Of a DNA stretch of 55,854 bases, positions 29,650 to 39,460 are shown one piece after another. Positions within the stretch are counted from its first letter, which is position 1, and every line of letters starts with the position of its first letter. Source of the DNA: Candidatus Baltobacteraceae bacterium (GTDB lineage: Bacteria > Vulcanimicrobiota > Vulcanimicrobiia > Vulcanimicrobiales > Vulcanimicrobiaceae). The position numbers and the translations under genes were made by a program. The notes beneath the pieces are model-generated. The model was not told where the DNA came from. It did no database searches and worked only from the letters and a program-made list of their open reading frames with translations. The DNA lies in NCBI GenBank assembly GCA_035502855.1, contig DATJTX010000034.1, positions 1 through 55,854 on the forward strand, read 5' to 3'.

Positions 29650-29803
29650 CGCCGCGAGCGGCGGTCACCCGCGAAACCGCTCCTCGCGCCGCATCCTGCG
29701 CCGCTCCTGCTACCGAGTTTTTGCGCCACATTCAGAGGAAGATCACATCCTGTGAATGGCGCAAAAACTTCGAGTTTTCGCTCGGTGACCACCGCTCGCG
29801 GCG
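29650..29803. repeat. 154-bp palindromic element between cheC and cheA
   Basis: Outer 20-nt arms (29650-29669 and 29784-29803) are inverted copies matching at 19 of 20 positions. Inside them, AGTTTTTGCGCC (29716-29727) pairs with GGCGCAAAAACT (29758-29769), extended by ATTCA/TGAAT. A third segment, AGTTTTCGC (29773-29781), can compete for the right inner arm. It lies in the 238-nt gap between the genes, which holds no credible ORF. It could be a small mobile element relic or a folded leader controlling cheA. Confidence 0.6.
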
Positions 29804-34164: not shown

Positions 34165-34860
34165 ATGCTTCCCGCACGCGCCGGTTTCCAGGACCTCAAA
34201 ACCCGCTTCTCGGCAGGTGCGGGAGCTCTCCGCTTGGCTCGGGAGCCGCTCTTCTCAACCGCCATCCCCGCGATCGACGCGCTGCTCGGCGGGGGCATTC
34301 CGTACGGTACGCTGCTCACGATCGAGGGCTGCGGCAGCGCCGGCTGCCGGAGTATCGCTGCCGCGCTGCTCGCCCAAGGCACGCGCCACGGGCTGGGAGC
34401 GGTGATCGACGGAGGCGAGCTCTATCCGCCCGCACTGGCGGCGGCCGGTGTACGGCTGGACCGGCTGTTGATCGTTCCGGCTGCGACGCCGATGGCGCTC
34501 GCACGGGCCGCGGATCTGCTACTGCGCTCGCGTACCGCGCGGGTCGTGGTCATGACGGCGGGCGCGTTACGGGCGGCGGTGTGGGCTCGTCTGGCCAAGC
34601 TTGCCGCGCGAACCGGAACCGTCCTGGTGGTGCTCGCCGCCCGCGCGAGCGCCGAACTGAGCGTCGTCGCCGGCGTTCGCTTGGCATGCCGGCTGGAGCG
34701 GGCGGTGCTGCGCGGAACGCGTGGGCTGTGGGGTGTCTTTGCCGGGTTCGAACTGCATGCCGAAGTGCGCAAACACAAACGCGCCTGCAGCGGCGAGGTT
34801 CTCGTAAAAGCGCTGACTCCGCCGGTTGTCTATGGCCGTGACGAGGGCGTGAGCAGATGA
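34165..34860 (+). CDS. imuA: ImuA-like RecA-fold protein of the SOS mutasome
   Basis: 231 residues. It has a RecA-like core: IPAIDALLGGGIPYGTLLTI, then EGCGSAGCRSIAAALLAQGT in the Walker A position, where the invariant Gly-Lys-Ser/Thr is lost, as in other ImuA proteins. AGVRLDRLLIVPA and LARRA-like stretches follow. It lacks the DNA-binding detail of true RecA. ImuA proteins support damage-induced mutagenesis with ImuB and DnaE2. ATG 34165 is followed four codons from its end by the imuB start (overlap ATGA). Confidence 0.8.
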   Translation: MLPARAGFQDLKTRFSAGAGALRLAREPLFSTAIPAIDALLGGGIPYGTLLTIEGCGSAGCRSIAAALLAQGTRHGLGAVIDGGELYPPALAAAGVRLDRLLIVPAATPMALARAADLLLRSRTARVVVMTAGALRAAVWARLAKLAARTGTVLVVLAARASAELSVVAGVRLACRLERAVLRGTRGLWGVFAGFELHAEVRKHKRACSGEVLVKALTPPVVYGRDEGVSR

Positions 34861-36119
34861 TCGCGTGCGTTCGTGTTCCCAACTACGCGTTAGGCGAGAT
34901 CGTCTGGCAAGAGATGCTCGATGCGCTCGATGCGGTCACGCCGCTGATCGAGGATGCCGGGTCGGGTACGGCCTTTCTCGACATGCACGGAATGCGCGGT
35001 GATCCGCGGGTTTGGAGCACGCACGTTCGCGCGGAGTTGGTGCGGTTCGAGTTGCCGCTGCATATCGGCGCCGGACCCAATCGTTTCTGCGCGCATGCGG
35101 CTGCGTGGAGCGGCGACGGTACGGTCATCGAATCCGGCCGCGAAGCCGGCGCCCTCGCCCCGCTGCCCCTCGAGGTGCTCGAACTCGAATCCGGTATCAT
35201 CGAACGCTTGCACCTTCTCGGCGTGAACACGCTCGGCGAACTGGCACGTCTACCGCACGGTCCGTTCGTGCGGCGCTTCGGCTCCGATGCGGCCCGTTGG
35301 CACGAGCATGCGCGCGGAATCGATCGTGTGCCGTTTCTGGCGCGCGGTCACGCGGTGTCGATCGAGGCGACGATGCTCGGCGAAGGTTCGGCCGAGAGCG
35401 AAGCGGCGGTGGTCTTCGCCTTACGCGTGTTGATCGGGCGAATCTGCAACGATCTCGAACGTTGCGGAAAACGCGCCGGCGCGCTGCAAGTCGAGATCGA
35501 ACTCGAGGATGCGCAGACCGATCGTTTCGACGTAGCGCTCGCCGCGGCGACCTCGCAGGAGCGTGCAATGCTCGACGTGCTCCGGGTCAAACTCGAGAGC
35601 GCGCGCTTTTCTGCGCCGATCTGCGGGCTGCGCTTGCGCGCGCTCGGCTTGGAAGAAGGGGGCGAACCGATCCCGCTGCTTGCCGGCGACGAAATCGATC
35701 GGGCGAACGTGGCAGTCGTGCTCGCGCGTCTGGAGGCCGTACTCGGTGAACCCGTGCGCCGGGCGCAGATCCGGGCGGCGCATCCGCTCGAAGAGCGTTT
35801 CGCCTATGAACCGTTCACGCTCCCCGCGAATCGGCCGAAGGCCGGACGCTACGGATTCGGCGAAGCCGAATCCACGCGACTCGTTCCACAACTGCGCCTG
35901 CTCGAGGTGACCGAGATCGACGTGCGGCTCCGCCGTGGCGAACCGGCAACGATCGGTGAACGCACGGTGACGCAGTGCGCGGGGCCGTGGCGCATCGAGG
36001 AAGGATGGTTCACCGCCGCGGTCGTGCGCGACGAGTACGACGTACAGCTCGAGGACGGCGAGATCTGCCGCATCTATCGCCAGGGCGAGCGCTGGTATCT
36101 GCGAGGGTCGTATGATTAG
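34857..36119 (+). CDS. imuB: ImuB, catalytically inactive Y-family polymerase-like protein
   Basis: 420 residues. It aligns in outline with Y-family polymerases (palm start ACVRVPNYALGEIVWQ, little-finger region LEEGGEPIPLL) and includes the helix-hairpin-helix region LLGVNTLGELARLPHGPFVRRFG. The catalytic acidic residues of DinB (MDAFFASVE, SVDEAYLD) are missing, being replaced by PNYALGEI and GTAFLDMHG. ImuB acts as an adaptor joining DnaE2 to the sliding clamp. A consensus clamp-binding peptide is not obvious by eye. It overlaps both neighbours. Confidence 0.82.
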   Translation: MIACVRVPNYALGEIVWQEMLDALDAVTPLIEDAGSGTAFLDMHGMRGDPRVWSTHVRAELVRFELPLHIGAGPNRFCAHAAAWSGDGTVIESGREAGALAPLPLEVLELESGIIERLHLLGVNTLGELARLPHGPFVRRFGSDAARWHEHARGIDRVPFLARGHAVSIEATMLGEGSAESEAAVVFALRVLIGRICNDLERCGKRAGALQVEIELEDAQTDRFDVALAAATSQERAMLDVLRVKLESARFSAPICGLRLRALGLEEGGEPIPLLAGDEIDRANVAVVLARLEAVLGEPVRRAQIRAAHPLEERFAYEPFTLPANRPKAGRYGFGEAESTRLVPQLRLLEVTEIDVRLRRGEPATIGERTVTQCAGPWRIEEGWFTAAVVRDEYDVQLEDGEICRIYRQGERWYLRGSYD

Positions 36120-39100
36120 TGGAGGCTCTGCGTGGCTGCGGCGCTGATGTGAACTATGCGGAACTCCATGCGTACTCGAATTTCACCTTTCTCGAAGGTG
36201 CGTCTCATCCGGAAACGCTGATCGCCCGCGCGGCCGAACTCGAGCTTACGGCGATCGCGTTGACCGATCGCGACGGGCTCTACGGCGCGGTACGTTTTGC
36301 GGGCGCCGCACGCCGCGCGGGCATCGAGGCGATCATCGGCAGCGAGCTCACCCTCGAGGACGGTACCTCTCTGGTGCTGCTGATCGAAGACGCGCGCGGA
36401 TATGCCAATCTGTGCGAACTGATCTCAACCGCCCAGCTACGCGGCAGCAAAGGTGACGCTCGGCTGCGGATCGAGGATCTCGACGGCCGCAGCCAGGGGC
36501 TCGTTGCGCTCTCGCAGAGTCTCGAGCCTGCGCGGATCGATGCGCTGCGCGCATGTTTTCGCGATCGCTGCTACCTCGAACTCCAGCACCACCTCGCCCC
36601 CGCCGACGCAGAGCGTAATCGGCGCCTCGTTCGCCTGGCCCGGGAGATGCGCGTGGCATACGTGGCGACCAACGGCGTCGTCTATGCCGATCGCGCGGAT
36701 GCTCCGCTGGCCGACATTCTCGCCTGCGTCAAAGAAACGATCACGCTCGAGGCGGCCCGCGCGCAGCGTCGTTTGCGTCCCAACGCCGAATACCATCTCA
36801 AATCCGCCGCGGCGATGCGAGCCGTCTTCAGTGCCTATCCCGAAGCGATCGACGCGACGCTGACGATCGCACAGCGCTGCCGCTTTCGGCTCGAACGGCT
36901 GACCGGGCAATTCCCGCTCTTTCCGGTGCCCGACCCTTCGAGGGGCTCAGGGCAGGCTTACACGCGCCAGAGTTATCTGCGCGAACTCGTGTATCGCGGC
37001 GCCGCCGATCGGTACGGTACGCCGCTCGCATCCAACGTCGAACGTCAACTCGAATACGAACTCGGCATCATCGCCAAGATGGATCTGGCCGGCTACTTCC
37101 TGATCGTCTGGGACATCGTGCAGGCTGCCGATCGCCTCGGTGTGCTCTGCCAGGGCCGCGGATCGGCCGCCAATTCGGCAGTCTGCTACGCGCTCGGCAT
37201 CACCGCGGTCGATCCGGTCGGCATGAATCTGCTCTTCGAGCGCTTCATGTCGGAAGAGCGGCAAGAGATTCCCGACATCGACATCGACTTTGCGCATCAA
37301 GACCGCGAGCAGGTCATCCAATACGTCTACGAACGCTACGGCCGCAGCAACGCCGCGATGGCCGCCGAGGTCATCAGTTACCGCACGCGCTCGGCCCTGC
37401 GCGACGTCGCCAAAGCCCTCGGCTTCACGATCGAACAAACCGAAGAAATCGCGAGAGAATACGACGCCCGCGAATCGCTCGAAGATGCCGCCGCGCAATT
37501 CGGCGAACGCGCACGGCGTCTCGACGAATTCTGCCGCCGCATCGACGGTTTTCCGCGCCACATGGGCATCCACTCCGGCGGCATGGTGATCACCCGCGAT
37601 CCGCTGATCCGCGTCGCCCCGATCGAATGGGCGACGATGCGCGACCGCACCGTCATCCAGTGGGACAAAGACGACCTGCAAGAACTCGGCCTGATCAAGA
37701 TCGACCTGCTTGGCCTGGGCATGCTCTCGCTCTTGCGCGAAGCATTTTCGATTCACAAGCGATGCCTACGCGAAGGTGGCATCCCGAGCCCGATCGAGAG
37801 GAGACGGAGGTGCATCAGGGCTGTTGCCAAGCGAAGGCTCGAAGTTTTGCGCCATTCGCAGGATGCGCCCTTCGAGGCTCGCCTTTGGCTCGCACCTCAG
37901 GATGACGGAAGACACTGTCATCCTGAGGAGCATCGCCGCGAAGCGGCGATGCCTCGAAGGACGCGAGGAGCGTCTTCGCGGGCAATAACCCTGATGCACC
38001 TCCCTCGACTGACAACGCAGCCCCTCGCGCTCCACACCATTCCCCCGGACGATCGCGACACGTACGCGATGATTTCGAAGGCCGATACGATCGGGGTGTT
38101 TCAGATCGAATCGCGGGCGCAGCAGTCGATGTTGCCGCGGATGAAGCCGCGGTGCTTTTACGACATCGTGATGCAGGTTGCCATCATTCGGCCGGGCCCG
38201 ATACAAGGGCAGATGGTGCATCCGTTTTTGCGCCGGCGCGCGGGACTCGAACCGGTGACATATCCGCATCCGAAGCTCAAGCCGGTACTGGAGCGCACGA
38301 TGGGTGTGCCGCTCTTTCAAGAGCAGGGTATGCGTATGGCGATCGAGGCGGCGGGATTTACGCCGGGTGAAGCGGACGTGCTGCGCCGGGCGATGGGGCA
38401 CAAGCGCTCGCACGAGCGGATGCGCGAGATCTATCCGAAGCTGGTCGAGGGCATGGTCGCGAACGGGATCGATCGCCCGGCGGCCGAGCAGCTCTTCCAC
38501 ATGCTCGAAGGCTTTGCCGATTACGGATTTCCCGAATCGCACGCGGCCAGCTTCGCGCTGCTCGCCTATGCCTCGGCCTACGTAAAATGTCATTTTCCGG
38601 CGGTCTTTGCGGCCGCGATCCTCAACGTGCAGCCGATGGGATTCTATTCGACCGAAGTCTTGGTCAACGACGCGCGCCGGCACGGCGTGGTGGTGAAACC
38701 GGTCGAGGTGAACGCGAGCGAGTATTGGTCGCACGTGGAGAGGGACGGCGCGCTGCGTTTGGGGTTTCACCTCGTGCGCGGCCTGGGCAGCGCGCAGAAG
38801 GAGCGGCTCGAAGCGGCGCTCGCGCAAGGACCTTTTGCGGATCTGCTCGCCTTCGCGCAGCGCACCCGGCTCGAAAAAGAGGCGATCGAGAATCTAGCGG
38901 TCGCGGGGGCGTTCGCGCCGTGGTTCGCATCGCGACGCGAGGCGATGTGGGCGCTGCGCGCGCTCGATGAACGCGAGGCACGCGGCGAGCTCGGGAAGTT
39001 GATGGAGGTCGAAGAGCCCGCGGTGCAGTTTGCGCCCCTCGCCCCGAAAGGAGAGACCGCGTTCGATCTCTGGTCGACGGGCGTGACGACGAAGGTGCAG

Positions 39101-39460
39101 GCGGTGGCGCATTTTCGCGCGCAGCTCGACGAGCAGCGTGTGATTTCGGCGCAGCGGCTGGAGGCGATGCCCAATCATCTGCTCTGTCGCGTCGGCGGTT
39201 TGGTGATCACCCGCCAGCGGCCGGGCACGGCCAAAGGCTTCGTGTTTCTGACGCTCGAGGACGAAACGGGTCTGGTCAACGTGATCGTGCGGCCGGACGT
39301 ATACGAACGTTACCGCCGCGTCATCCGCACCTCGAACATGCTCGTGATCGAGGGGGTCTTACAGAAGGAAGCGGGGACGATCGACCTGCTCGCCCGTGCT
39401 GCGTGGCCACTCGAGGATGGCGGCGTCACCGACGGCGTGCGCTCGCACAATTTTCATTAA
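36119..39460 (+). CDS. dnaE2: Error-prone DNA polymerase DnaE2
   Basis: 1113 residues. The PHP domain opens ELHAYSNFTFLEGASHPETL, and the polymerase core shows LCQGRGSAANSAVCYALGI, the catalytic IPDIDIDF (about residue 385), HSGGMVITRDPLIRVAP and VAIIRPGPIQGQMVHPFLRR. A C-terminal OB fold (LCRVGGLVITRQRPGTAKGF) follows. It extends primers past lesions under SOS control. GTG 36119 overlaps the imuB stop; GTG 36149 would give the usual short N-terminus. A 198-bp palindromic repeat is inserted in frame between the DLLGLGMLSLL and ADTIGVFQIESRAQQ motifs, at residues 563-629. Confidence 0.9.
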   Translation: MEALRGCGADVNYAELHAYSNFTFLEGASHPETLIARAAELELTAIALTDRDGLYGAVRFAGAARRAGIEAIIGSELTLEDGTSLVLLIEDARGYANLCELISTAQLRGSKGDARLRIEDLDGRSQGLVALSQSLEPARIDALRACFRDRCYLELQHHLAPADAERNRRLVRLAREMRVAYVATNGVVYADRADAPLADILACVKETITLEAARAQRRLRPNAEYHLKSAAAMRAVFSAYPEAIDATLTIAQRCRFRLERLTGQFPLFPVPDPSRGSGQAYTRQSYLRELVYRGAADRYGTPLASNVERQLEYELGIIAKMDLAGYFLIVWDIVQAADRLGVLCQGRGSAANSAVCYALGITAVDPVGMNLLFERFMSEERQEIPDIDIDFAHQDREQVIQYVYERYGRSNAAMAAEVISYRTRSALRDVAKALGFTIEQTEEIAREYDARESLEDAAAQFGERARRLDEFCRRIDGFPRHMGIHSGGMVITRDPLIRVAPIEWATMRDRTVIQWDKDDLQELGLIKIDLLGLGMLSLLREAFSIHKRCLREGGIPSPIERRRRCIRAVAKRRLEVLRHSQDAPFEARLWLAPQDDGRHCHPEEHRREAAMPRRTRGASSRAITLMHLPRLTTQPLALHTIPPDDRDTYAMISKADTIGVFQIESRAQQSMLPRMKPRCFYDIVMQVAIIRPGPIQGQMVHPFLRRRAGLEPVTYPHPKLKPVLERTMGVPLFQEQGMRMAIEAAGFTPGEADVLRRAMGHKRSHERMREIYPKLVEGMVANGIDRPAAEQLFHMLEGFADYGFPESHAASFALLAYASAYVKCHFPAVFAAAILNVQPMGFYSTEVLVNDARRHGVVVKPVEVNASEYWSHVERDGALRLGFHLVRGLGSAQKERLEAALAQGPFADLLAFAQRTRLEKEAIENLAVAGAFAPWFASRREAMWALRALDEREARGELGKLMEVEEPAVQFAPLAPKGETAFDLWSTGVTTKVQAVAHFRAQLDEQRVISAQRLEAMPNHLLCRVGGLVITRQRPGTAKGFVFLTLEDETGLVNVIVRPDVYERYRRVIRTSNMLVIEGVLQKEAGTIDLLARAAWPLEDGGVTDGVRSHNFH
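36934..36958. repeat. Short palindromic repeat fragment inside dnaE2
   Basis: This 25-nt tract begins CCCTTCGAGGGGCTCAGGG and encodes PSRGSGQA in the dnaE2 frame. It shares CCCTTCGAGG and CTCAGG with the larger element in the same gene, and resembles the dispersed palindromes whose reverse reading gives ALSPSKG in many genomes. It sits in a variable stretch between conserved polymerase segments. Confidence 0.45.
37806..38003. repeat. 198-bp in-frame palindromic repeat element within dnaE2
   Basis: The outer arms, 37806-37836 and 37974-38003, are inverted near-copies (both share GGAGGTGCATCAGGG). The centre has a perfect 12-bp stem, CCTCAGGATGAC (37895-37906) with GTCATCCTGAGG (37917-37928), flanked by CCCTTCGAGG and CCTCGAAGG. 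The length is 66 codons with no stop, so the polymerase frame is kept. The encoded peptide is Arg/His-rich and unlike any part of DnaE2. It resembles repeats such as Rickettsia palindromic elements that insert in frame in genes. Confidence 0.75.

Follow-up and report, generated by a model that had tools for sequence, protein, structure and literature searches.

The dnaE2 gene of a soil bacterium of the Ca. Eremiobacterota carries a long palindrome within its reading frame, which raises the questions of where this segment came from and how an error-prone DNA polymerase accommodates it. The gene lies in a stretch of 55,854 nucleotides (called the window below) from a 96.6% complete draft genome in 39 contigs. 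It closes a gene order of imuA-like, imuB-like and dnaE2:

34165..34860, + strand: imuA-like gene, matching NF033429 below its cut-off
34857..36119, + strand: imuB-like gene, with weak matches to DNA polymerase IV models
36119..39460, + strand: dnaE2 (imuC), intact error-prone DNA polymerase of 1113 aa (ORF, NCBIfam, Pfam domains)

The product of 36119-39460 scored 1231.7 bits with the NCBIfam error-prone DNA polymerase model, and PHP, palm, finger, HHH and OB domains were recognized in it by Pfam.

A first-pass annotation made from the letters alone had placed a palindrome at 37806-38003, and our measurements agree that it is real. The left outer arm GGAGGTGCATCAGGG (37806-37820) returns inverted at 37989-38003 as a perfect 15-bp match, for which shuffled sequences gave no counterpart, and the whole insert folds at -144.9 kcal/mol (z -10.3 versus dinucleotide shuffles). 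The annotated perfect 12-bp inner stem was likewise recovered, as CCTCAGGATGAC/GTCATCCTGAGG at 37895-37906/37917-37928. The outer arms, described there as about 30 bp long, are present, with the perfect match confined to 15 bp and a longer imperfect form of 26 nt matching at 88%. The length of the insert had to be revised from exactly 66 codons (198 bp) to 82 codons when measured against a congener (G001), with outer limits beyond the 198 bp:

~37775..38020, + strand: segment gained relative to the congener, 82 codons = 246 nt, limits uncertain by ~9 nt (codon alignment with G001, loops of relatives)
37806..37820, + strand: left outer arm, private to this copy (arm search, genome search)
37989..38003, + strand: right outer arm, private to this copy (arm search, genome search)

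Measured from the third catalytic Asp motif up to FQIESR, the segment spans 138 residues in this protein and 56 in the congener, and nearly every other relative falls within 56-65; the short form of the loop was also found in DnaE of viral contigs and in other distant DnaE proteins. The site, whose state in close relatives the annotation had proposed as a check, is thus empty in the congener and in almost every other relative. The gain in dnaE2 is therefore recent. An old conserved domain, the alternative that the annotation had set against its own reading, is ruled out by the short loop of the distant proteins, and the insert also has many copies in the genome.

Those copies come from the inside of the insert. 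The outer arm, which had been put forward as the search key, belongs to the non-repeated part and has no other occurrence in the source genome, while the inside gave 39 matches there (itself included). The insert is a mosaic in which a core A element is interrupted by GTCATCCTGAG REP-like units, repeats of which its own genome has dozens of copies:

37829..37867, + strand: core A, 5' part (repeat family in the source genome)
37868..37961, + strand: module B, two facing GTCATCCTGAGG REP-like units and a variable hairpin (37930-37952), replacing the apex of core A
37962..37985, + strand: core A, 3' part (repeat family in the source genome)
29653..29803, - strand: second core A copy of the window, between a cheC-like gene and cheA, with its own unique stem (repeat family, site comparison)

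The facing REP-like pair of module B lies at 37895-37928. Across the source genome we counted 65 GTCATCCTGAG sites versus 0 for the reversed control and 38 GTCATCCCGAG sites versus 1; an initial scan for consensus variants, which allowed three mismatches, gave a result at chance level. An exact pattern of core A matched in Eremiobacterota assemblies only. At another locus of the source genome (L004/L151, C21:33292-33680), a module B-like unit, TCGCCTTCGGCTCGCACCTGCGGGTGACGGAGCA, is repeated in tandem after the start of core A, indicating that module B expands in tandem too. Ten element-bearing loci had no Rfam match up to E = 1, and no description of the repeat letters or peptides was found in the literature, of which figures and supplements are not searchable. 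Most cores, read by eye, seem to lie antisense to the neighboring genes. CsrA-binding sites are AGGA hairpin loops, and the idea that the cores are such sites is argued against by this apparent orientation.

We traced the flanking genes of ten copies in relatives. At ccsB, cheC-cheA, nuoF-nuoG, nuoD-nuoE, ychF, fliE and other sites, core A occupies the site in one species while another lacks it there (the gene names at copy sites being sequences recognized by eye, except those from family searches). At cheC-cheA in the congener, for example, core A is absent and a few bases separate the stop from the start. Since the occupancy of orthologous sites differs between species, the elements move; together with the 39 matches in the source genome, this bears out the earlier proposal of a mobile palindrome family that enters genes. 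In the aligned filled and empty sites, where the relatives are too distant for exact junctions, no direct target-site duplication was seen. No candidate for a mobilizing transposase was found in the source genome or 12 relatives. PF01797, the RAYT-type Y1 transposase, was absent from the same genomes (the source genome at 96.6% completeness) in searches that found their positive controls, and a RAYT-driven REPIN was rejected on this ground.

The insert leaves the gene readable, as the first-pass annotation had stated: it has no stop in the dnaE2 frame, the ORF is open from 36119 to 39460, and the dnaE2 frame is the only one of the three sense frames that is open throughout the insert. Alignment with the copies L002, L003 and L005 revealed one A missing before 37868 and one extra base at 37908-37914:

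37867..37868, + strand: 1-nt deletion relative to the other three copies, GGATGCG^CCC here, GGATGCGACCC elsewhere (copy alignment)
37908..37914, + strand: 1-nt gain relative to the other copies, GGAAGACACT here, GGAGCAACT elsewhere, which restores the frame (copy alignment)

When copy L002 is read from the same starting frame, a TGA turns up in the very stretch that the shifted frame of the window avoids. The compensating -1/+1 indels, which are private to the dnaE2 copy and avoid an in-frame stop, may be read as a sign of selection for translation, although they could predate the insertion into dnaE2. They also bear on the scarcely credible case of an assembly artifact, in which dnaE2 would have acquired the repeats by mis-joining. 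With 39 contigs the genome is a draft, and assemblers fail at repeats, but an artifact fits poorly with arms and indels private to this copy, with a dnaE2 frame that runs on at both sides, and with a different element in the same loop of an independent assembly (see below).

Between the source genome and the congener, a codon alignment of both sides of the insert gave a dN/dS of ~0.08 for the N part and ~0.05 for the C part, indicating that purifying selection acts on the flanks, with the limit that such a value averages the whole time since the split and so cannot show that dnaE2 functions after the insertion.

The insert is located just past the helix that follows the third catalytic Asp, at the palm-finger junction: the Pfam palm ends at residue 532 and the finger starts at 633, and Taq DnaE aligns to 547 and resumes at ~640. 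The annotation had recommended modeling the loop on a DnaE structure. An AlphaFold2 model from 19 input sequences, whose DnaE homologues came from viral contigs only, had a mean pLDDT of 80.4, with ~25-60 over residues 551-630 and confident structure on both sides; it thus predicts the insert to be a disordered loop of an otherwise normal polymerase.

From these observations we consider it probable that a composite, non-autonomous REP-type palindrome moved into a tolerant loop of dnaE2 with the frame kept and with its product tolerated, not removed. In such a course of events, the palindrome, which carries two facing GTCATCCTGAGG REP-like units in place of the apex of its core A, would have inserted at a DnaE2 loop that tolerates extra residues, and the two compensating 1-nt indels would keep the in-frame TGA out of the dnaE2 frame. 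The polymerase would then most likely carry ~82 extra residues as a disordered loop, tolerated rather than removed. The self-complementary arms perhaps arise at or after insertion, when one flank is copied in reverse by template switching. On this reading the insert would be translated, DnaE2 would keep its activity and the change would be nearly neutral.

The first-pass annotation had also considered a peptide that is removed after translation. More broadly, the segment could be taken out at the RNA or protein level by intron-like excision of the hairpin, intein-like splicing or translational bypass. The hairpin is indeed very stable, yet Pfam reported polymerase domains only and no Hint splicing domain in DnaE2, and nothing indicates removal. 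The element loci have no Rfam match, other copies are intergenic, and a segment destined for removal would have no need of the open, selected frame seen here. We therefore regard removal as highly improbable.

Related genomes also have insertions in this loop. The related species G041 (isolate clean348) has two dnaE2 genes (L250, L251): one is longer by ~62 codons at this loop, through a palindrome with the arms GTATCCGCTGATG/CATCAGCGGATAC, and in the other the loop is short. The core of the G041 insert has 11 matches in that genome, on arms that are specific to each copy (4 copies measured). This family C (L253-L263) occupies at least 11 places and is a three-way-junction repeat, sharing with core A in other copies the motif GCAGCAGGAGC-hairpin-GCGAGGAGCG. 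G005, of another genus, has at the same loop CHPEQSRG, as encoded by a single GTCATCCTGAG-type unit; G019 has a 27-residue expansion there. The empty site of the congener favors that the source genome and G041 were probably hit independently rather than sharing an older insert that was turned over.

Seven other ORFs of the source genome (L014, L028, L038, L040, L042, L152 and L167) contain apparent in-frame REP-like segments in HPE or QDD frames; this number is a lower bound, as the survey covered the stretches around copies only. The proteins at these loci are:

isoleucyl-tRNA synthetase
squalene/phytoene synthase family protein
dihydrolipoamide acetyltransferase (PDH E2)
RecQ-like helicase
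thiolase
glycine C-acetyltransferase
heptosyltransferase-like protein

These recurrences weigh on two further explanations. The insertion may have damaged dnaE2 and left an early pseudogene whose frame is open by chance, with little time for decay. A large insert near the catalytic center and a dN/dS that cannot date a loss of function are compatible with this, but the whole 3.3-kb ORF is intact with its catalytic and conserved residues present, private compensating indels avoid a stop, the insert is a loop in the AlphaFold2 model, and similar inserts recur in the same loop of intact dnaE2 genes, so that a pseudogene seems unlikely. The other explanation, following a speculation of Di Nocera et al. 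on REP-tagged repair proteins (PMC3733652), is an adaptive loop that alters the fidelity, partner binding or regulation of the mutagenic polymerase. That one loop was hit repeatedly in related genera and that REP-tagged repair genes are reported in other phyla speak for it, whereas tolerance fits better with the findings that the peptides at this place are unrelated, that disorder is predicted and that ordinary metabolic genes have inserts too; we rate adaptation as quite improbable.

The arms of the palindromes behave differently from their cores. For 12 copies, the left arm compared with the reverse complement of its own right arm scored 34-50 (mean 39.8), whereas arms compared between copies scored 12.6 on average and 29 at most; in the examined copies, the stem on which the core sits has a sequence common to no other copy. 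Two core A copies of G041 (L175, L219) are identical over 96 nt at unrelated sites and on unrelated arms, which reflects recent spread or gene conversion. At nuoF-nuoG, by comparison, the orthologous cores of the source genome (G000) and G041 are 85% identical. The core therefore spreads or is homogenized within a genome and the arms are bound to their sites. A consensus fold calculated from ten cores and part of their arms had 45 pairs; 19 of these showed changes on both sides, far in excess of either control. That an RNA stem covaried slowly is argued against by identical cores with unrelated arms versus 85% identity at nuoF-nuoG; as the arms do not simply drift faster, the covariation counts do not prove an RNA function.

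Two sites point to a source of the arms. At ccsB, the empty site reads stop-CGTCACGTTT, and the filled site keeps this flank and has an inverted copy of it, AAACGTGACG, on the far side. At nuoF-nuoG, the outer arm includes the last codons and the stop of nuoF, and its inverted copy lies just before nuoG. These inverted flank copies suggest template switching as the source of the arms; inverted copying would account for the outer arms at these two sites only, and neither flank explains the inner arms. At nuoF-nuoG (L218, L219) the arms, which differ between the two species, pair the nuoF end with the region before the nuoG start in both, and the hairpin could affect nuoG translation. Insertion into ready-made hairpins is opposed by the lack of an unusually strong hairpin at most empty orthologous sites and by the near-zero cheC-cheA spacer of the congener; in some relatives, hairpins do occur within the ychF and fliE spacers themselves, which leaves this route some small room.

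In-frame palindromes and REP inserts in DnaE2 are already known (PMC3733652; earlier in Rickettsia). Di Nocera, De Gregorio and Rocco (2013) described REP-tagged proteins, many of them in replication and repair and DnaE2 included (PMC3733652). Their CGTC REPs, among which are Rickettsia RPE-4 and RPE-6 and Neisseria dRS3 and for which no dedicated transposase is known (PMC3733652), are, like our repeats, high-copy short palindromes with a (C/T)GTC-AT start, often in opposite-orientation pairs, mostly beside gene ends and sometimes in-frame within genes, DnaE2 among them. Module B has many copies and facing pairs, and carries a terminal unpaired CGTC-type tag, CTGTCATCC (37915-37923), where TGTC and CCTC variants are allowed (PMC3733652). 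The 8-9 bp stem, 4-5 nt loop and CCA tail of CGTC REPs were not found in module B: its stem TCCTGAGG/CCTCGAAGGA has a GA bulge and encloses a 23-nt variable hairpin, followed by CG. Module B also differs in sitting within the larger core A and in belonging to a phylum not listed in PMC3733652.

The Rickettsia palindromic elements (Ogata et al. 2000, reviewed in PMC2229807), which are 100-150 bp long, lie in-frame in conserved genes and are tolerated in gmk, resemble ours in behavior; ours occur both in-frame in conserved genes and between genes. The first-pass annotation had been reminded of them with good reason, but the phylum is another one and the arms here differ in every copy. REPINs and GTAG REPs with RAYT are similarly non-autonomous hairpin repeats at many sites per genome (PMC3116915, PMC3733652); unlike GTAG REPs, ours come with no Y1 transposase gene in the source genome or 12 relatives, and no GTAG tag was seen beside the hairpin in hairpin starts read by eye. 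Terminal inverted repeats common to the copies, as tested for MITEs, were absent, the arms matching within and not between copies. Through inverted copying of local sequence, template switching makes and mends perfect hairpins (Monttinen and Loytynoja 2022, PMC8794818), but hairpins of that kind have no mobile conserved core at the apex. The coding palindromes of Nematomorpha mitochondria (PMC6649704) are also long perfect inverted repeats in translated genes; there both arms encode conserved protein, whereas the palindrome in dnaE2 adds a loop.

None of the named families that could be compared accommodates core A, and we found no earlier description of near-identical cores on stems private to each copy. 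Tentatively, and at somewhat less than even chances, core A and family C may constitute an undescribed class of mobile elements, with a conserved three-way-junction core and a stem rewritten at each site, at least partly by inverted copying of local sequence, that repeatedly enters the same DnaE2 loop.

In sum, the locus adds a poorly studied phylum to the few bacteria in which proteins with in-frame mobile palindromes are known. It offers a case with private frame-keeping indels, and one polymerase loop that different repeats appear to have hit independently. The pairs of filled and empty sites could reveal how such palindromes move and, if it is true that the arms are rewritten from local sequence at each insertion, this would be a new origin for long matching hairpins in bacteria.
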